Shown piece by piece: positions 2,644 through 62,159 of a stretch of 64,000 nucleotides of DNA. This stretch comes from an uncultured Flavobacteriaceae bacterium (lineage in GTDB: Bacteria > Bacteroidota > Bacteroidia > Flavobacteriales > Flavobacteriaceae): positions 124,001 to 188,000 of the forward strand of contig CANKZQ010000001.1 in NCBI GenBank assembly GCA_947488345.1, given 5' to 3'. Position 1 is the first letter of the stretch, and every line of letters begins with the position of its first letter. A program made the translations under genes and the position numbers. The notes below the pieces were generated by a model. The model was not told where the DNA came from. It did no database searches and worked only from the letters and a program-made list of their open reading frames with translations.

Positions 2644-4005
2644 TTGTACGCCATTGTTGACATAGAAACTACCGGTGGGAAATACAATGAAGAAGGTATT
2701 ACCGAGATTGCCATTCATAAATACGATGGGCATCAAGTTGTAGACACGTTTATTAGTTTGATCAATCCGGAGCGGGATATTCAACCTTTTGTGGTAAACC
2801 TGACAGGAATTAACAATAAAATGCTCCGAAATGCTCCGAAATTCTATGAAGTTGCAAAACGCATTGTTGAAATCACAACCGATTGTATCATCGTAGCACA
2901 TAATGCCAACTTTGATTATAGAATATTAAGAACAGAGTTTCAACGATTAGGTTTCGAATTTGAGAGACAATCACTTTGTACCGTTGAATTGAGCAAGGCG
3001 CTTATTCCGGATCTCCCTTCCTATAGTTTAGGAAAACTATGTCGCACTTTAGGTATTCCAATGACAGATAGACATAGAGCAAATGGCGATGCTATCGCTA
3101 CAGTAAAACTATTTCAATTGCTTCTAGATAAGGACATTGGAAAAACCATTATCAGTGAAGCAGTCCGTAAAGAAACTAAAAAACAGCTAGAACCCAAACT
3201 ACTCGATATTTTAGAAGATCTACCATCTACAACGGGCGTCTACTATATGCATAAGGAAAATGGTGATATCATCTATATTGGTAAGAGCAAAAATATTAAA
3301 AAACGCATCAATCAACACTTTACAGGCACTTCCCATAAAGCAAAGAAAATACAATTGCAAGTGGCTTCTGTAAGCTATGAAAATACAGGAAACGAATTAG
3401 CCGCTCTCTTAAAAGAAAGTGAAGAGATAAAGTACAATAAACCTATTCATAATAGGGCCTTACGACGCACCATATTTACACATGCGTTATATAGTTTTAC
3501 AGATGAACAAGGTTATATTAACTTAAAAATTGACAAAGCAGACGGGAGAAAAAAACCCATTACCACCTTTAGTAATCGTCAAAGTGCCAAAAGTTTTTTG
3601 TTTCGCATGACAGAAGCATATCAGCTTTGTCAAAAACTAACAGGTCTATACAAGACGCAAAAAAATTGTTTTAACTACACTATAAACACTTGTAATGGGG
3701 CTTGTATATTAAAAGAACCTATTAGTCAATATAACGAAAGAGCACAAGAACTAATTAGTAAGAATAGTTTCGAAAATCAAAGTTTTGTTATTATTGACAA
3801 GGGAAGAACTTATGATGAGCGTTGTGCTATTTTGATAGAAAATGGTATTTTTAAAGGATTCACCTTCTATGATCTGAATTTTCAAGTAACTAATATTAAT
3901 GTATTACGTTCATTGGTAACACCGATGCAAAATAACAGAGATGTGCAGCATATTATTAAAAATTATATTCGAAAGAATAAAAAATTAAAAATCATCACAT
4001 TGTAG
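2644..4005 (+). CDS. DnaQ-like 3'-5' exonuclease fused to GIY-YIG nuclease
   Basis: Putative DNA-repair nuclease with two catalytic modules. Residues 1-165 form a DEDDh exonuclease of the Pol III epsilon type, with DIETTGG at the start, HNANFDYRI in the middle and HRANGDA at the end. Residues about 195-275 are a UvrC/Cho-type GIY-YIG domain with TGVYY, IIYIGKS, KKRINQH and the glutamate of LLKESEEIK. About 180 further residues include a cysteine-containing segment as in UvrC-like proteins. The start is TTG immediately after the preceding stop. Such fusions are known in Bacteroidota and Actinobacteria, where a role in excision repair is inferred. Confidence 0.9.
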   Translation: MYAIVDIETTGGKYNEEGITEIAIHKYDGHQVVDTFISLINPERDIQPFVVNLTGINNKMLRNAPKFYEVAKRIVEITTDCIIVAHNANFDYRILRTEFQRLGFEFERQSLCTVELSKALIPDLPSYSLGKLCRTLGIPMTDRHRANGDAIATVKLFQLLLDKDIGKTIISEAVRKETKKQLEPKLLDILEDLPSTTGVYYMHKENGDIIYIGKSKNIKKRINQHFTGTSHKAKKIQLQVASVSYENTGNELAALLKESEEIKYNKPIHNRALRRTIFTHALYSFTDEQGYINLKIDKADGRKKPITTFSNRQSAKSFLFRMTEAYQLCQKLTGLYKTQKNCFNYTINTCNGACILKEPISQYNERAQELISKNSFENQSFVIIDKGRTYDERCAILIENGIFKGFTFYDLNFQVTNINVLRSLVTPMQNNRDVQHIIKNYIRKNKKLKIITL

Positions 4006-4006
4006 C

Positions 4007-5974
4007 ATGAATAATAAAGTTCTCTTATTTATATGGTTATTATATAGTAGTACAACTAGTAATAGTCAAGAAAGACCGCCATACTTCTTTGGTGACATAA
4101 CTCAAAGGGAATACAATTTAAAAGTTTATGAAAAAGATAGTACTGCCAACGCGGTTTTTTTATTCGAGTTTGGTCGATCTAATTTCGCAAGAAGTAATAA
4201 TTCTATTGTAATTCTGACTAGATATTACGCAAAAGTCAAAATTTTCAATAAAGAAGGTATGCAGAACGCAACTATTAAAATTCCAATCAAAAATAATCAA
4301 AAAGAAAGTGAAAAAGTCTTCGGAATAAAAGCTATCACCCACAATGGAAGAATAAGGAAAGGATTAAATCCGAAAAATATATTCGTATCAAGAATCAATA
4401 GTAATCTGGCCGAAGTTAAATTTACAATGCCTGACATCAAAGAAAACAGCATAATTGAATACGAATATACACTAGAATCTCCCTTTTATTTTAATTTTAA
4501 GGGTTGGGAATTTCAAAGTCACATTCCTAAAATATACAGTGAATTCTATGCAGTCATTCCAGGTAATTACAGGTATAACAGAAGCCTTAGAGGGTATCAA
4601 AAGTTGAGCAAAAATATTGTGAATGTAGTTAGAAAATGCTTTTATATTAGTCGCTATATATCTCCAGCGGATTGCGAAGAATTAATCTATGCGATGGAAG
4701 ATGTGCCTGCATTTATCGAAGAAGATTATCTAAACTCAAAATCAAATTATCTATCGGCTATCAAATTTGAATTATCAGAAAATGTCGCATTCTATAAAAG
4801 TAAAAAGAAGTACAGCAAAAATTGGAAAAGCGTAGATAAAGAATTTCGAACTGGTGAAAGCATCGGAAAACAACTAAAAAAAGTAAATGAATTTGAAAAA
4901 ATTCTCCCTCCCGAATTGTATACAGGAGAAAATAACCTTACAAAGGCTAAAAAAATATTTTACCACATTACTGACCATATAACATGGAATGAACGTGTTA
5001 ATTTGTTTTCGGCAGTAGATGCAAAAAAAGCATATATTGATAAAGTAGGGAATAGTACCGAAATAAATATAGCCTTAATTAATGCACTTAATTCCGCTGG
5101 TTTCGATGCACATGTTGTTTTATTATCAACACGTAGTAATGGTTTACCAACAAAAATACATCCTGTTTTATCAGAATTCAATTATGCAATCGCTAAATTG
5201 GACATAGATAATAAGAGCTATCTTCTAGATGCAACAGACAAAAATTTACCCTTCAATCTTTTGCCTTTTAAAACACTTAATAGTTACGGAAGAGTAATGG
5301 ATTTTAAAAAAGGGAGTTACTGGTACCCCATTGACGTAAAAAATCATTACACACGCACTTCCTTGAAATTAAAAATGGACGATTCTGGAAATTTTAAAGG
5401 ACAAATGCAAAAGTCATTTGATGGTTACAAAGCTGTCGCGAAAAGACTGAGTATCGATAAGCTCGATCGAGAAGAGTATCTTACGAAAGCTGAAGAAGAA
5501 TACGGCACAGATGACAATCTTGTCATAAACTCCTATAAAAATTCGGATGTAGAAAATATAGAAAAACCTTTAAAAGAACTATTTGATATTACTATTGAAA
5601 ATGAACCTTCGGGTGATTTAATCATATTTAATCCTTTTATAGACGGAGAGTCGCGTGTTAATCCATTCAAACTTAATCAACGATTGTACCCAGTAGATTT
5701 TGGTCATGCTACAACCACTTTGTTTAATTTACAATTAATTATACCCGAAAGTTACAAAGTCAAAAGTTTACCAGAACGAAAAGCAATTAAATTACCGAAT
5801 GATGGCGGTCTTTTTACATTTAGTATTGTTGAGAAAAATAACAAGATTCAAATGACTTTTAAAGTTATTATAAAACGTGCTCTTTATGATCCAAAGGAAT
5901 ATCCTTATTTAAAAGAATTTTTTAAGCAAATCATCAAAACTCAAAAGAGTTTAATAACTTTAGAAAAAAAATAA
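4007..5974 (+). CDS. DUF3857 / transglutaminase-like secreted protein
   Basis: Large exported protein of 655 residues with a weak signal peptide ending near NSQ. The N-terminal half matches the DUF3857 beta-rich domain (YYAKVKIFNKEGMQNATIKIP, with EYEYT near residue 155). The middle has a transglutaminase-like fold containing TEINIALINALNSAGFDAHVV. That segment normally holds a catalytic cysteine, but here the aligned position seems to be NIAL, so activity is doubtful. Such proteins are widespread and uncharacterised in Flavobacteriia. It starts 1 bp after the nuclease gene. Confidence 0.82.
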   Translation: MNNKVLLFIWLLYSSTTSNSQERPPYFFGDITQREYNLKVYEKDSTANAVFLFEFGRSNFARSNNSIVILTRYYAKVKIFNKEGMQNATIKIPIKNNQKESEKVFGIKAITHNGRIRKGLNPKNIFVSRINSNLAEVKFTMPDIKENSIIEYEYTLESPFYFNFKGWEFQSHIPKIYSEFYAVIPGNYRYNRSLRGYQKLSKNIVNVVRKCFYISRYISPADCEELIYAMEDVPAFIEEDYLNSKSNYLSAIKFELSENVAFYKSKKKYSKNWKSVDKEFRTGESIGKQLKKVNEFEKILPPELYTGENNLTKAKKIFYHITDHITWNERVNLFSAVDAKKAYIDKVGNSTEINIALINALNSAGFDAHVVLLSTRSNGLPTKIHPVLSEFNYAIAKLDIDNKSYLLDATDKNLPFNLLPFKTLNSYGRVMDFKKGSYWYPIDVKNHYTRTSLKLKMDDSGNFKGQMQKSFDGYKAVAKRLSIDKLDREEYLTKAEEEYGTDDNLVINSYKNSDVENIEKPLKELFDITIENEPSGDLIIFNPFIDGESRVNPFKLNQRLYPVDFGHATTTLFNLQLIIPESYKVKSLPERKAIKLPNDGGLFTFSIVEKNNKIQMTFKVIIKRALYDPKEYPYLKEFFKQIIKTQKSLITLEKK

Positions 5975-5981
5975 GAGCCAA

Positions 5982-6815
5982 TTGACTTCAAAAAACAAAA
6001 AAAATAATTGGAGATTTAAGCTTCATGAGATCATTTATGAAGCAGATACGTTGCCCGGTAAGTTGTTTGACCTTGTACTTCTCATTTTTATTCTTGCCAG
6101 TGTTTTGTTGGTGATGTTGGAGAGTGTAGCGAGTCTTGATGAAAAATACCATACCTTTTTTAATGTGGCGGAATGGGTGATTACCATTTTATTTACCTTA
6201 GAATATTTTGGAAGAATAATTGCCATTAAAAAACCTTCCAGATATATTTTTAGTTTTTATGGCATTATAGATTTACTCTCAACTATTCCTAAATATCTAT
6301 CACTATTATTTGTGGGTACGCATGCCTTGGTAGCCTTGCGAGCCTTGCGACTATTGCGGATCTTCCGAATTCTCAAATTAGCGCGATATGTAGGGGCCTC
6401 CAATAGACTTATGGTAGCACTTCGGGCAAGCAGAGCGAAAATTGCTGTCTTCCTTTTTTTCATTTTAATCTTATCGATTATTTTAGGTACGGTAATGTAT
6501 TTAGTAGAAGTAAATGAAGATAGTGGCTTTACAAGTATTCCGAGAAGTATCTATTGGGCAATTGTAACCCTTACCACTGTTGGTTATGGTGATATAGCAC
6601 CGGTTACCGCCTTAGGTCAACTCATTGCATCGATTATTATGATATTAGGTTATGGTATTATCGCTATTCCTACGGGAATTGTTTCCGCCGAATTTACTAC
6701 CAGTGCCTTGAACGTGCAAACCAACACTCAAAATTGTCCTAACTGTGCTGTCGAAAAGCATCGTGATAATGCAGAATTTTGCTATAACTGTGGTCAGGTT
6801 TTAAATGATGAATAA
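5982..6815 (+). CDS. Voltage-gated potassium channel with C-terminal zinc ribbon
   Basis: Inner-membrane ion channel subunit of 277 residues. Transmembrane segments S1-S4 precede the pore, and S4 carries regularly spaced arginines (LRALRLLRIFRILKLARY). The selectivity filter is TTVGYGD between S5 and S6. After S6 the chain ends in a CX2C-X11-CX2C zinc ribbon (CPNC...CYNC) where many relatives have a coiled coil or nucleotide-binding domain. The start is TTG, 7 bp after the previous stop. The 3' end overlaps the start of miaA by 11 bp. Confidence 0.92.
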   Translation: MTSKNKKNNWRFKLHEIIYEADTLPGKLFDLVLLIFILASVLLVMLESVASLDEKYHTFFNVAEWVITILFTLEYFGRIIAIKKPSRYIFSFYGIIDLLSTIPKYLSLLFVGTHALVALRALRLLRIFRILKLARYVGASNRLMVALRASRAKIAVFLFFILILSIILGTVMYLVEVNEDSGFTSIPRSIYWAIVTLTTVGYGDIAPVTALGQLIASIIMILGYGIIAIPTGIVSAEFTTSALNVQTNTQNCPNCAVEKHRDNAEFCYNCGQVLNDE

Positions 6816-7719
6816 CTATCTTATTTCTATTGTCGGCGCTACGGCGATTGGTAAAACTTCTCTGAGTATCGCCATTGCAAAACATTTTAAAACGGAGATC
6901 ATATCATCAGATTCTCGACAGTTTTATCGTGAAATGACCATCGGAACTGCCGTTCCTGATACCGAAGAATTGGCACAAGCTCATCATCATTTCATTCAAA
7001 ATCGATCTGTTTTTGATGATTATAACGTTGGTCAATTTGAAAAAGACGCCATTAAAAAACTCGATGAACTCTTTGATAAAAATCAAGTCGTGGTTATGGT
7101 TGGCGGTAGTGGCCTGTATGTCGATGCCGTACTAAAAGGGTTGGATAATTTCCCACAAGTAGACAAAAATATCCGTAAAGAATTAAAATTACGATTAGAA
7201 AAAGAAGGTATAGAATCTTTACATCAGCAACTCAAAGAACTAGACTCTGAAACCTTTGAAAAAATAGATATCGACAATCATCGACGTGTAATTCGAGCCC
7301 TCGAAATATGTATTGGCACAGGGGCAACATATGCTTCTTTTTTAACTGATAAAACAAACGAGCGGAATTTTATTCCGATTAAAATCGGATTATCAGCAGA
7401 GAGAGCCACCATCTATGAACGTATTAACCAGAGAGTAGATCTCATGATGCAAAATGGTCTTTTGAATGAAGCAGAAAACTTATTTCAATACAAAAACCTG
7501 AACGCGTTACAAACTGTAGGTTACAAAGAGCTTTTTCAATATTTTGAAGGAGATTTTGACCTAGACTTTGCCATTTCTGAAATTAAAAAAAATACACGGC
7601 GTTTTGCCAAACGTCAAGGCACTTGGTTTCGTAAAGATTCCGAAATAAAATGGTTCAATTTTGAAGAGCCCAGAGAACAAATAATTGAGTATATTGAGAA
7701 CATCATAAGTATAAAATAA
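6805..7719 (+). CDS. miaA: tRNA dimethylallyltransferase MiaA
   Basis: Adds a dimethylallyl group to A37 of tRNAs that read UNN codons. The 304-residue protein has the usual length. It shows the P-loop GATAIGKTS, the SSDSRQFYREMTIGTA block, GGSGLYVDAV and the C-terminal RRFAKRQGTWFRK signature. Two ATGs are adjacent (6805 and 6808), both inside the end of the channel gene, so translation is probably coupled. Confidence 0.97.
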   Translation: MMNNYLISIVGATAIGKTSLSIAIAKHFKTEIISSDSRQFYREMTIGTAVPDTEELAQAHHHFIQNRSVFDDYNVGQFEKDAIKKLDELFDKNQVVVMVGGSGLYVDAVLKGLDNFPQVDKNIRKELKLRLEKEGIESLHQQLKELDSETFEKIDIDNHRRVIRALEICIGTGATYASFLTDKTNERNFIPIKIGLSAERATIYERINQRVDLMMQNGLLNEAENLFQYKNLNALQTVGYKELFQYFEGDFDLDFAISEIKKNTRRFAKRQGTWFRKDSEIKWFNFEEPREQIIEYIENIISIK

Positions 7720-42829: not shown

Positions 42830-42856
42830 ATGACAGTAACATGACATCTAAATGTC
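42830..42856. promoter_or_regulatory. ATGACA array and dyad upstream of XRE-hydrolase fusion
   Basis: ATGACA occurs at 42830-42835 and 42841-42846 (period 11), and the second runs into the dyad GACATCTAAATGTC (42843-42856). The array ends 1 bp before the -33 TTG. A similar pair of TGTCAT sites with period 11 precedes the other XRE-linked hydrolase gene at 62167-62183. Confidence 0.5.
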
Positions 42857-42857
42857 G

Positions 42858-42888
42858 TTGAAAAGTCAAGGTCGATGGTATACATTTG
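42858..42888 (+). promoter_or_regulatory. Promoter of the XRE-serine hydrolase fusion gene
   Basis: TTG (42858-42860), 20-bp spacer, TACATTTG (42881-42888), an exact TANNTTTG match. It lies 24 bp before ATG 42913, and it rules out the in-frame TTG at 42886 as a start. Confidence 0.7.
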
Positions 42889-42912: not shown

Positions 42913-44667
42913 ATGGACAAACAAGCACTCGCCGAAAAACTCAAATATCATAGAAAAAACAACGGCTTTTCTCAAGAAGAATTGGCACATCAAACTAACG
43001 TCACGGTACGTACGATTCAACGTATCGAAAACGCTGAAGTGAGTCCGCACCTCAACACGGTCAAATTACTCGCGGTTGCCTTAGACATCGAGGTACAGGA
43101 ACTCTTACCTTTAGAAAATCCGAAAGAAGAAACCATTAAAAAGAAATGGTTACTCTTATTGCACGCCACCCCTCTACTAGGTATTTTTATTCCTTTAGGA
43201 AATGTGTTGATTCCTCTATTCATCTGGATTCATAAAAGAGAAGACAATCCCATTTATAATGAACATGGTATCAAGGTCATCAACTTTCAGATTACCACCT
43301 TTTTTATTGCAGTGCTGTCGTTTATAAGCTTGGTCACTATTGAAAAATGGGGTTTCTTTATTTTCATCTCTGCAGTTCCCATCTGTATTGCCATTATGTT
43401 GTTTAATATCGTTTATGTACTTCAAAAAGAAAAGAGCTATTACCCGCTCGCTATCCCCTTTTTAAAATTAAAATCGACGAGCGTCGTGAAGGGCGTTGTT
43501 ATCTTCTTGAGCGTATCTATTCTGGGTAGTTGTACCTTACAAGAAAACCAAAATATAGAACGTCTAGATGGAAGCACCATACATCAAGATTCTATCACCA
43601 AAAAAATTGAGCAGCTAACAAAGGATGCTAATGTTCAAGGTATGGCCATTGCAGTTTTTAATAAGAACCAGCCGGTCTATCAAAACATCAGTGGATATAA
43701 AGATTTTCCAAAAAAATTAATTTTAACAGACTCTACCAATATTTATGGTGCCTCGTTAAGCAAAGCGGTATTTAGCATCTTAGTCATGAAATTGGTTGAG
43801 GAAAAAGTAATTGATTTAGACACGCCTTTGGAATCCTATTTACCAAAGAAATTATATGAATATAAGCCCTTGACACGCTGGCATGATGATTTTTCTGATT
43901 TAAAAAATGACTCTCTCTACCATAAAATAACCGCGCGTATGTGTTTGGCCCATACCACAGGTTTTGCCAATTGGCGCTTTTATGAAACCGATAGAAAATT
44001 GAGAGTAAATTTCAATCCGGGTTCCCGTTATCATTACAGTGGTGAAGGCTTTGTATACTTACAAGTGATTTTAGAAAAGATAACAGGAAAAGGTCTGGAA
44101 GCCTTAGCACAAGAATACATTTTCGAGCCACTACAAATGAACAACTCTTCATATCGATGGCAAACCGATTTTGACTATGACTTTGCCTATGGGCATATGA
44201 AAGATGGGAAAACTTATGAGAAAGACACCGACAACGAACCAAGAGGTGGAAGCACCTTAGAAACGACAGCAAGTGATTATATCAAATTTCTCACAGCTGT
44301 CCTCGAGCAAGACCTATTGAGCAAGGCTTCATACGATGAGATTTTTAGTCCGCAAGTTCGCATCAAATCTCTTCGTCATTTTGGACCGCTATCGACCAAA
44401 ACAACAGACGCCTATAATGACATCAATTTGAGTTGTGGTTTGGGTTGGCTCTATCTCGAAACACCCTACGGGCATGGGGTATCGAAAGGTGGTCATGGTA
44501 ATGGGTTTCAACACTATTCAATACTATTTCCAGACAGCGGCAAAGGAATCTTGATTATGACCAATTCTGACAATAGTGAAGGTATCTATAAAGAGTTATT
44601 AGAATATATTCTCGCCGATACCTATACACCATGGGAATGGTCGAATTTTATTCCTTACGATCAATAA
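42913..44667 (+). CDS. XRE regulator-membrane-serine hydrolase fusion protein
   Basis: 584-residue protein with three parts. Residues about 1-65 are an XRE helix-turn-helix (FSQEELAHQTNVTVRTIQRIE). Residues about 75-185 are a DUF4870-like membrane domain with IPLGNVLIPLFIW and INFQ. A fifth helix ends in LGSC207, which looks like a lipobox. After it comes a beta-lactamase-family domain with the SxxK tetrad Ser281-Leu-Ser-Lys284, AHTTGFANW, a YSG variant of YxN, and GGHGNGF. Topology would put the DNA-binding part inside and the hydrolase outside. A short-chain analogue without the hydrolase lies at 55520 and 61590. Confidence 0.9.
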   Translation: MDKQALAEKLKYHRKNNGFSQEELAHQTNVTVRTIQRIENAEVSPHLNTVKLLAVALDIEVQELLPLENPKEETIKKKWLLLLHATPLLGIFIPLGNVLIPLFIWIHKREDNPIYNEHGIKVINFQITTFFIAVLSFISLVTIEKWGFFIFISAVPICIAIMLFNIVYVLQKEKSYYPLAIPFLKLKSTSVVKGVVIFLSVSILGSCTLQENQNIERLDGSTIHQDSITKKIEQLTKDANVQGMAIAVFNKNQPVYQNISGYKDFPKKLILTDSTNIYGASLSKAVFSILVMKLVEEKVIDLDTPLESYLPKKLYEYKPLTRWHDDFSDLKNDSLYHKITARMCLAHTTGFANWRFYETDRKLRVNFNPGSRYHYSGEGFVYLQVILEKITGKGLEALAQEYIFEPLQMNNSSYRWQTDFDYDFAYGHMKDGKTYEKDTDNEPRGGSTLETTASDYIKFLTAVLEQDLLSKASYDEIFSPQVRIKSLRHFGPLSTKTTDAYNDINLSCGLGWLYLETPYGHGVSKGGHGNGFQHYSILFPDSGKGILIMTNSDNSEGIYKELLEYILADTYTPWEWSNFIPYDQ

Positions 44668-55519: not shown

Positions 55520-56080
55520 TTGAATATCATTAAGAACATACGAGAGCAGCATGGGTATACCCAAGATGAATTGGCAAATAAGTCAGGATTATCTCTACGA
55601 ACAATACAACGTCTAGAATCAAGTAATAAAGAGCCTAAAGGACATACCTTACAAGTGATCTCGGCCATTTTTAAGATGGAACCATCTGTATTGCAACAGG
55701 AGTTTAAAATTGTAGCGCATATCAAGAAATCTGAAACAACGGCTATTCGATTTATTAATCTTGCCGTTTTGACTTTTTTAGGTATTCCTTTTGGCAATCT
55801 CATCATACCCATTCTCCTTTGGAGGAAAAACAGAACCTCTAGGTTTGTTGATGAAATAGGAAAACGCATTATCAACTTTCAAATTATATGGTCGGCAATG
55901 CTATGTATTCTAATGATTTTATCTCCTTTTATCTCTCGTTTGTTTCTCTCTAACTCCCCAATTATTTTACGCGTTTTGTTTGCTGCATATGCTTTTAATA
56001 TTGGCATTGTTTGTTATACAGCGATGAAATTACAGCGTGATAATTTTGATTTCTTAAACGTACCCATTCGCTTTATTTAG
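55520..56080 (+). CDS. Membrane-anchored XRE regulator (stand-alone, copy B)
   Basis: 186-residue protein: XRE helix-turn-helix at residues 1-60 (YTQDELANKSGLSLRTIQRLE), then a four-helix DUF4870-like membrane domain with IPFGNLIIPILLW and IINFQI. It is closely related to the regulator part of the fusion at 42913 and to the one at 61590. The start is TTG; a promoter-like TTG-N20-TAACTTTA runs 55483-55513. It is followed, 130 bp later, by an aspartic protease gene. Confidence 0.86.
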   Translation: MNIIKNIREQHGYTQDELANKSGLSLRTIQRLESSNKEPKGHTLQVISAIFKMEPSVLQQEFKIVAHIKKSETTAIRFINLAVLTFLGIPFGNLIIPILLWRKNRTSRFVDEIGKRIINFQIIWSAMLCILMILSPFISRLFLSNSPIILRVLFAAYAFNIGIVCYTAMKLQRDNFDFLNVPIRFI

Positions 56081-56210
56081 AGTTAATACTTTAAAATTGA
56101 CGTAAAATTGGCGGTATCATCCGCCCATCAAATATTCTTTTTTACTTTTTATTTGTGTAGTCGAGTTAGCTATGACCATCATAGTTTTCGTCAAGTTAAA
56201 AGCACAATTC

Positions 56211-57206
56211 ATGAAGAAAAAAATAGGTTACGCTTTACTCATCATTTTAATCTGCCTCCTAATAGCAGGTTATATAGGAATTCGAAAATTCAACAGTTTT
56301 ATTACAAAAGAAACGCCTAATTATTTGACCTATACTTCCGAGTCAAAACCCATCCATTTTGATTGGGCCAATGATTCTATCGGTAACTATTACGAAAAAC
56401 AAACGGCCATGACCATTCCTTTAAAAATAAAAGGATTTGATCATAGATTTTATATGCAATTCGATACGGGGTCTCCATTTTCTTTTATTTATGAAAAAGA
56501 TTTCAAATCACTCAAGGCACTTGGAATTCCTCTAAATGAAGTTATAAAGGACAAAGAAAGGTATATTGAACATCTCGACTTTGTGCTATCCGATGCTCAT
56601 ATCAAAGCCTCTATGATCAAAATATTGCCCAATTATGGAAACGTCTTTGATAAAAACGATACTATCCCGAAAATAAAAATAGGAACCATTGGTAGTGATT
56701 TTATGGACAATCGCATCATCGTCATAGATTTTACAAACCAGAAAATTAGGCTCTTTAATAAGCGACCACCATGGATGTTGAAATTATCTAATTTTAAACC
56801 ATTTGACTATACAGCTAGACGACGTATCATGTTACCCGTAATCATCGATAATAAAAAGTATGAGTTTTTATATGATTCTGGATGCAGTGCTTTTGGACTC
56901 ATAACTATAAAAAGTCGCTTTCTCAGCTATACCGATAAAGACACTGCACCGCTCAATTATGGCGCTAATAGTTGGGGCAATAGCATACCTATTGTAAGTA
57001 AGCCTTCAAATAAAATATTTACAATTGGAAATACAGAATTACAATTAAAACGAGTTAGCTATGTCGATATGTACACCATAACACAACCTTTAATAACACC
57101 ATTTACTCGAATTGGTGGTTGGATGGGCAATCAACCTTTTAATGAAAGCACCTTGATAATAGATACAAAAAAAGAAGAGTTTGTTATTCTAAAAGACGAA
57201 ATATGA
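56211..57206 (+). CDS. Membrane-anchored pepsin/retropepsin-like aspartic protease
   Basis: 331 residues from ATG 56211, which begins a membrane anchor (KKKIGYALLIILICLLIAGYIG). Two catalytic motifs are visible: DTGSPFSF near residue 85 and DSGCSAFG near residue 222, one in each half, as in bilobed aspartic proteases. The extra-membrane domain is presumably periplasmic. The next gene overlaps its stop by 4 bp (ATGA). Confidence 0.85.
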   Translation: MKKKIGYALLIILICLLIAGYIGIRKFNSFITKETPNYLTYTSESKPIHFDWANDSIGNYYEKQTAMTIPLKIKGFDHRFYMQFDTGSPFSFIYEKDFKSLKALGIPLNEVIKDKERYIEHLDFVLSDAHIKASMIKILPNYGNVFDKNDTIPKIKIGTIGSDFMDNRIIVIDFTNQKIRLFNKRPPWMLKLSNFKPFDYTARRRIMLPVIIDNKKYEFLYDSGCSAFGLITIKSRFLSYTDKDTAPLNYGANSWGNSIPIVSKPSNKIFTIGNTELQLKRVSYVDMYTITQPLITPFTRIGGWMGNQPFNESTLIIDTKKEEFVILKDEI

Positions 57207-61589: not shown

Positions 61590-62159
61590 ATGAAAGAACA
61601 GCAAACTTTAAAAGAAGTTAGAAAACAACAAAATTTAACGCAAGAAGAATTGGCGAATGCTGCTGGTATTTCTATAAGAACAATTCAACGCATCGAAAAA
61701 GGAGAAACTATAGGAAGTGCCTATACCATCAAAATATTAGCAAAAACATTAGGTATAGAAAGTAGTAATTTGAAGGCCTCAAAACCAAAACAAACTTCGC
61801 AAGAACAAGATATTTATATCAAGGTAAAATTGCAGAATTTCAGTATTTTATCGGTTATTTTGATTCCTTTTGGAAACCTTATTTTTCCAGCCATTATTTT
61901 TTTTCGTCATCGAGAAGATCCTCAAATTAAAGTTTTAGGTAAAAAAATATTGAGCTTTCAATTGATGAGTACAATACTATTATTTATAGTAACAGTCTTT
62001 ATTTTTCATACAATTGGAAGGGGTCCTGGAGCAATCCCATTACCAGTATTTATTAGTTATCCAATGTATATATTGGTGAGTGTCTCTACAGTAATCTATA
62101 CCTCCATGCATATGCATGCAAATAATAAGTTATTAAATCTCTTCCCGACTATCATTTAA
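61590..62159 (+). CDS. Membrane-anchored XRE regulator (stand-alone, copy C)
   Basis: 189-residue protein. XRE helix-turn-helix at residues about 8-60 (LTQEELANAAGISIRTIQRIE), then a DUF4870-like membrane domain with IPFGNLIFPAIIFF and ILSFQL, and a last pair of helices. It lies directly upstream of a beta-lactamase-family serine hydrolase gene on the same strand (97-bp gap). The fused protein at 42913 joins the same two parts, so this pair probably works together. Confidence 0.87.
   Translation: MKEQQTLKEVRKQQNLTQEELANAAGISIRTIQRIEKGETIGSAYTIKILAKTLGIESSNLKASKPKQTSQEQDIYIKVKLQNFSILSVILIPFGNLIFPAIIFFRHREDPQIKVLGKKILSFQLMSTILLFIVTVFIFHTIGRGPGAIPLPVFISYPMYILVSVSTVIYTSMHMHANNKLLNLFPTII

Follow-up and report, generated by a model that had tools for sequence, protein, structure and literature searches.

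A Flavobacteriaceae gene fusing an XRE-DUF4870 regulator to a serine hydrolase through a junction of signal-peptide form

A single gene from an uncultured Flavobacteriaceae bacterium joins in one reading frame an XRE helix-turn-helix, a DUF4870/HOTT membrane domain and a serine hydrolase of the PF00144 family. It was found in a window (the whole stretch of DNA analysed here, 64,000 nucleotides in length) where it occupies the forward strand. We observe that the fusion is conserved in relatives, that its membrane domain and its enzyme meet in a segment with the features of a cleavable signal peptide, and that the gene is preceded by an operator which is nearly unique to it. The reading that we favor, and that we consider probable, is that of a self-regulated polyprotein giving rise to two products, a membrane regulator and an exported serine hydrolase, which would be cut apart at the internal signal peptide.

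The fused gene, its domains and its occurrence

The first-pass annotation, made from the window alone, had described one frame combining an XRE domain, a DUF4870-like domain and a beta-lactamase-family hydrolase. This description is borne out, as the frame is open over its entire length and all three domains exceed their Pfam cut-offs (Table 1); the list of open reading frames also gives a longer version of the gene with a TTG start at 42886. In the XRE domain, the RTIQRIE motif of the recognition helix is invariant in both the 24-row and the 41-row alignments, and the AlphaFold model has helices at residues 21-28 and 32-39. The DUF4870 match (PF09685) spans positions 2-107 of the 107 of the profile, and its four membrane helices are modelled at residues 70-89, 96-108, 113-142 and 146-172. 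Built from 41 rows (mean pLDDT 86.1, pTM 0.65), the model comprises an HTH fold, these four membrane helices, a fifth helix at residues 191-205, a linker that is poorly modelled and a hydrolase modelled with confidence, the placement of the domains relative to each other being uncertain because of the pTM value.

Table 1. Features of the fused gene and of its upstream region, in window coordinates
Feature	Position	Strand	Basis
Operator TGACA-N6-TGACA-N5-ATGTC-R	42831..42857	+	Upstream of 64/65 fusions with <=2 mismatches
Promoter -7 element TACATTTG	42881..42888	+	TAnnTTTG
Fused gene, 584 aa, stop included	42913..44667	+	Open from ATG 42913 to TAA 44667
XRE helix-turn-helix, residues 10-64	42940..43104	+	HTH_3 46.6 bits, Pfam cut-off 23
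DUF4870/HOTT membrane domain, residues 77-184, four predicted membrane helices	43141..43464	+	74.8 bits, cut-off 25
Internal signal peptide, residues ~187-206 (basic n-region, hydrophobic core, LGS before Cys)	43471..43530	+	Model helix 191-205
In-frame GTG, codon 192, possible internal start	43486..43488	+	Sequence
Lipobox Cys207 (LGSC), predicted N-terminus of mature enzyme	43531..43533	+	Cys there in 51/65 fusions
PF00144 Beta-lactamase/serine-hydrolase domain, residues 229-565	43597..44607	+	150.6 bits, cut-off 27
SxxK motif S281-L-S-K284	43753..43764	+	S281 and K284 invariant (24-row and 41-row alignments)
Tyr motif Y375-S-G	44035..44043	+	Y375 invariant (24-row and 41-row alignments)

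The SLSK tetrad pointed out in the first-pass annotation is indeed present, and its Ser and Lys are invariant. Because these two residues and the Tyr are all invariant, the tail looks like an enzyme and not like a dead sensor, and catalysis by the exported hydrolase is predicted. Its fold is nearest to those of 2qmi (a Pyrococcus PBP homologue), AmpC and the R61 DD-peptidase according to Foldseek, in agreement with the sequence search. Identity as a class C beta-lactamase was ruled out by the NCBIfam model bla_class_C (49.3 bits for a cut-off of 415), and a known anti-phage defence protein was likewise discarded, all 18 PADLOC matches falling inside residues 2-83, which cover the HTH and the start of DUF4870.

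A search across Bacteroidota, as proposed by the first-pass annotation, found full-length homologs at each level, with 4 genes in 3 of the 17 genus genomes, 22 genes in 22 of the 397 family genomes, which are samples, and homologs in 3 of the 394 phylum genomes, the genome of origin being included each time. Furthermore, when named genomes were scanned with the regulator part, the best 80 of 531 relatives comprised 46 located in a frame of more than 350 aa; among these best 80 of 531, such frames occur in Flavobacteriaceae, including Allomuricauda, Maribacter, Aquimarina, Arenibacter and Salinimicrobium, as well as in Bacteroidota outside this family, for example Marivirga, Xanthovirga and Marinigracilibium. 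A total of 108 genes was collected, of which 101 remained after removal of 7 duplicates with an identical regulator part. Two of these, L087 and L092, differ from L035 and L038 only in the start called for the same gene, and without them the set comprises 65 fused and 34 unfused genes. The tail belongs to the same hydrolase family in 61 of the 65 fusions, to another PF00144 branch in three (L046, L047 and L116) and to the DJ-1/PfpI type in one (L084). Fused relatives therefore exist and the frame as assembled in the window is free of a frameshift, the two points on which the first-pass annotation had said that its reading could fail. An assembly or frameshift artefact is ruled out by the 65 non-redundant fused genes. 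The fusion is real, yet patchily distributed. In one of the 22 family homologs (L038, in G231; also L092/L155), the XRE start is frameshifted in the assembly. Phage or plasmid cargo was discarded as an explanation, since no relative was found among viral contigs and, among the 173 plasmid records with a match, 0 extend over 80% of the fused protein, although a Spirosoma plasmid bears an HTH gene that adjoins a serine hydrolase gene.

The junction between the membrane domain and the enzyme

The first-pass annotation had overlooked the lipobox that lies between the membrane domain and the enzyme. At this place, the window encodes VVIFLSVSILGSC with an upstream Lys, which has the form of a lipoprotein signal located internally and not at the N terminus. 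A lipoprotein-type Cys ends the junction helix in 51 of the 65 fusions, Cys accounting for just 0.75% of the residues of the fused proteins. The residue at position -1 of these 51 Cys is Ser in 29, Asn in 10, Gly in 9, Gln in 2 and Ala in 1, which corresponds to a classical G/A/S in 39 cases and to a non-classical N or Q in 12. In a control set from the same loci, made up of 45 ordinary lipoprotein-like starts, this residue is Ser (29), Gly (5), Ala (3), Ile (3), Asn (2), Leu (1), Gln (1) or Met (1), so that Asn is commoner in the fusions (10/51) than in the control (2/45).

Twelve of the 14 fusions devoid of the lipobox Cys display an [ASG]Q pattern of the signal-peptidase-I type, with the predicted cut before the Gln (L075 with Met at -3); L035 of Salinimicrobium is an example of this type. 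This test is loose, as it also matches 17 of the 51 lipobox members (12/14 versus 17/51, Fisher p 0.0006). In shuffled non-lipobox segments, the pattern occurs in 28%. According to the available portion of a study on Bacteroidota, Gln after the cut is the rule for their signal peptidase I (PMC5837995), a rule that the 12 [ASG]Q junctions fit. Taken together, 63 of the 65 fusions have a junction of cleavable signal-peptide form (51 of lipobox type and 12 of [ASG]Q type), the classes being those set by the rules of this analysis and not by a trained predictor. The two junctions that fit neither type are those of L063 and of L084, the latter with the DJ-1 tail. In L063 (Maribacter aquimaris), LTSF is found where aligned relatives have LTSC; the lipobox Cys is lost and there is no [ASG]Q, and this gene thereby offers a natural test of whether lipidation is needed.

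At least seven switches between the lipobox type and the [ASG]Q type are counted on the regulator tree (59 rows), from which L063 was left out as it has no junction class. The basic n-region contains on average 3.9 K/R and 0.14 D/E, with a minimum of 2 K/R, and a hydrophobic core is present in every fusion. At 0.22, the mean pairwise identity of the junction is lower than that of any other region measured (XRE, 0.70; DUF4870, 0.64; TM3, 0.59; TM4, 0.47; mature N-terminus, 0.42; hydrolase, 0.64), yet the segment stays hydrophobic. Such a pattern would be expected from selection for a cut and not for a fixed anchor. The chain would be cut by a signal peptidase at this junction.

Head and tail behave as modules. 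The free relatives of the enzyme begin with ordinary signal peptides, and fused and free enzymes are intermixed on the enzyme tree, with five changes (quick tree). Two tandem paralogs of one genome, L010 and L013, share 94% of their heads and 47% of their tails, the tail of L013 having 78% identity with two free lipoproteins, L042 and L043. These comparisons indicate that tails are swapped with stand-alone enzymes. The free PF00144 lipoproteins of Bacteroidota are of the same enzyme family, with tail identities of up to 78%, but their genes have no regulator in frame. The trees, which contain 98 rows (L093, cut by a contig end, was left out), are rooted at midpoint only and are thus compatible with either fusion or fission. 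In the Subsaximicrobium locus L084, the XRE-DUF4870 and DJ-1/PfpI fusion (4001-5578) is followed by a free PF00144 lipoprotein gene (5653-7119), which belongs to the branch fused in L046, L047 and L116.

The operator, the promoter and the unfused relatives

The DNA site that the first-pass annotation had designated at 42830-42856 corresponds to the conserved operator of Table 1. It is made up of two TGACA half-sites in direct repeat, 11 bp apart, and of a third one that is inverted, and is found before the fused genes with an exact match in 53 of 65 and with at most one mismatch in 63, the sole fusion without it being L116 (4 mismatches); the best of 1300 shuffled upstream regions has 3 mismatches. 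TAnnTTTG, the Bacteroidota -7 consensus, begins 23 nt past the operator in 60 of 64 genes and 22 nt past it in one, and is absent in three. No conserved TTTG of a -33 element was found in the spacer; this absence hints at an activator, which it would suit, without deciding the sign of control.

In the genome of origin, only one site matches the operator with at most two mismatches, namely the exact one. A reversed control pattern also gives one match at this threshold, so that weak sites mean little and a site stands out clearly from the background only when it is exact. Searching 299 family genomes for the exact operator, with a slightly stricter pattern, yielded 25 sites in 25 genomes, one in each, and the reversed pattern gave 0 among the matches listed. 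As many as 22 of these 25 sites directly precede an XRE-DUF4870 frame. The other three are located about 170 nt before such a frame (L151), before a frameshifted one (L155) and before a remnant (L150). In L150, the operator and the promoter are kept ahead of a shortened remnant of the XRE start, which can be read as evidence of a recent loss. The operator thus appears nearly private to this regulator or its remnant, another point that the first-pass annotation had missed, and the XRE domain of the fused protein is predicted to bind it. A chance operator is ruled out by the shuffles and the reversed-pattern controls, with the caveat of the match at two mismatches or fewer in the genome of origin. 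The orientation put forward in the first-pass annotation, with the DNA-binding end in the cytoplasm and the enzyme end exported, is supported along with this DNA site just upstream of the gene.

Unfused XRE-DUF4870 genes carry the operator as well (26 of 34 within 2 mismatches), and the operator therefore belongs to the regulator head and not to the fusion. In two Gammaproteobacteria, an Alteromonadaceae MAG (L090) and Aliidiomarina sedimenti (L094), the regulator and a PF00144 hydrolase are encoded side by side by separate genes, with an operator at 2 and 1 mismatches, respectively; the occurrence of this regulator and its operator suggests a transfer between phyla.

A same-strand frame lies within 300 bp of 15 of 20 unfused XRE-DUF4870 genes from relatives. 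These neighbours comprise three PF00144 genes, four of one retropepsin-like type (the one scanned falls below the Pfam cut-off), two resembling Rce1-like genes, one trypsin-PDZ, one redoxin, one DUF2480 and three others. It is suggestive only that envelope hydrolases and proteases recur beside the unfused genes. The two-gene neighbourhood was set aside as a proof of partnership, for which it is only moderate, a PF00144 gene being next in 3 of the 20 unfused genes (60 relatives).

The window itself contains two more XRE-DUF4870 genes on the forward strand. A second, shorter one (55520-56080, TTG start) lies 91 bp ahead of a retropepsin-like gene (56172-57206, forward strand; Asp_protease_2 19.2 bits, below cut-off), and this pair recurs in the relatives L206, L208 and L209. 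The third (61590-62159) is followed after 97 bp by the gene of an exported PF00144 hydrolase of 590 aa with a C-terminal membrane part (62257 to beyond 64000, forward strand), a pair also found in L211. Furthermore, in a clade including L097, L100 and L106, which shares the operator, the gene downstream of the unfused XRE-DUF4870 gene begins within about 20-75 bp and encodes an Rce1-like (PF02517) intramembrane protease.

A probable two-product polyprotein and its alternatives

The probable sequence of events would be as follows. A membrane-bound transcription regulator would be formed by the XRE domain together with the four helices of DUF4870 (HOTT), and would set from the operator, to which its binding is predicted, the transcription starting at the -7 element. 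Sec would insert the chain through the four DUF4870 helices, after which the fifth helix, a complete internal signal peptide, would export the enzyme. Signal peptidase II would lipidate the chain and cut it before Cys207 in the window, as in about four fifths of the relatives, and signal peptidase I would cut before a Gln in about one fifth of them. The cut would free a lipid-anchored or periplasmic serine hydrolase, whereas the regulator would stay in the inner membrane, and the two would be made one for one. From a single dedicated operator immediately ahead of its own promoter, the regulator would set the dose of the enzyme; this would be its job because its own operator is the only strong site. 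The DUF4870/HOTT domain is the natural candidate for the sensing part, and an uncut fraction may signal before cleavage.

Several known systems share parts of this arrangement. In BlaR1/MecR1 with BlaI/MecI, a membrane protein links an outside PBP/beta-lactamase-fold domain to the control of a serine hydrolase gene, as would be the case here, and its defining features are an M56 protease and a PF00905-type sensor. The first-pass annotation had drawn this analogy, and its claim of a true fusion between regulator and hydrolase is supported. The Pfam search of the fused protein returned no M56 zinc protease match (E<=1) and no PF00905-type penicillin-binding sensor, with PF00144 instead, and the junction has a cleavable form. 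In contrast to BlaR1/MecR1, the DNA-binding domain is in the same chain, and the outside PF00144 domain has invariant catalytic residues and probably leaves. Cytochrome b/c1 FbcH of Bradyrhizobium is made as a polyprotein in which signal peptidase I cuts at an internal signal peptide, but it consists of two respiratory subunits without a regulator. A precedent for the cutting of a polytopic protein by a signal peptidase is LtaS of Staphylococcus aureus, in which, as described in the accessible part of the report, SpsB separates a polytopic membrane part from an extracytoplasmic enzyme (PMC10865820). LtaS is however one enzyme without a DNA-binding domain, whereas the part retained here would be a transcription regulator, and the cut in the fused family would mostly be of lipoprotein type. 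The fused protein is also akin to the DUF4870/HOTT (Tic20-like) proteins, its match to this domain being full-length. The HOTT family is uncharacterized apart from magnetosome MamF-like proteins, and a fusion to an HTH or a lactamase is mentioned 0 times, in the accessible text of the paper on this family (PMC11628618). No XRE-DUF4870-hydrolase architecture was found in open-licence titles and abstract beginnings, a body of literature from which subscription journals are mostly absent.

The first-pass annotation had instead seen one intact protein carrying an outside signal to DNA, in which an uncleaved anchor helix would let the binding of a ligand or substrate outside alter DNA binding inside. 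One continuous chain in 65 genes, a suitable topology and the 2 of 65 junctions with neither cleavage type agree with such a sensor. A plain anchor, however, would not keep a Cys, or else [ASG]Q, at the outer end of a segment that otherwise drifts to 22% identity, and both the invariant catalytic residues and the exchange of tails with free lipoproteins speak against it. In view of the cleavable form of 63 of the 65 junctions, this claim is not upheld, and we hold an intact BlaR1-like sensor to be unlikely, and less likely than a cut polyprotein. It is also conceivable that the full chain is made rarely and that an internal start at the GTG of the junction gives a normal lipoprotein precursor. 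From this codon, the window encodes a short and complete lipoprotein signal peptide, and ATG, GTG or TTG is found at the junction in 38 of 65 fusions; yet a start codon is not conserved there, as ATG accounts for only 16 of 65, and 27 of 65 have none of the three. An internal promoter is not favored either, a -7 element (TAnnTTTG) being rarer at the junction than in shuffles (3/65 versus 17%), and the use of two starts seems quite improbable.

Finally, the regulator might monitor the export and cleavage of its own tail, the processing of the signal peptide being the input. The signal peptide would become the fifth helix of the regulator, and, in the accessible parts of the respective sources, DUF4870/HOTT is presented as distantly related to Tic20, a protein of chloroplast import (PMC11628618), and LtaS is an example in which substrate can influence the cutting by signal peptidase (PMC10865820). 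On the other hand, unfused XRE-DUF4870 proteins without such a tail keep the operator (26/34), meaning that the regulator can work without it, and this export-coupled switch strikes us as highly improbable. A more specific form, a rather doubtful conjecture, is that the Tic20-like domain holds the signal of its own preprotein as a fifth helix and that binding to the single operator is altered once signal peptidase has removed the tail. If export sensing were true, the supply of the enzyme would be tuned to the efficiency of lipoprotein export and processing, and XRE-DUF4870 would be a general head for envelope cargo, that is, serine hydrolases, the DJ-1 tail and the Rce1-like or protease genes alongside.

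If the favored reading of a polyprotein cut into two products is right, one translation event in a marine-type bacterium would yield a transcription regulator and the envelope enzyme under its control in a 1:1 ratio, and the junction would be maintained as a cleavable signal for either of two signal peptidases. Annotators would also be warned that a fusion frame need not correspond to one mature protein. Furthermore, the uncharacterized DUF4870/HOTT domain would gain a testable role as the membrane part of a local regulator, and its XRE partner would gain a precise operator.
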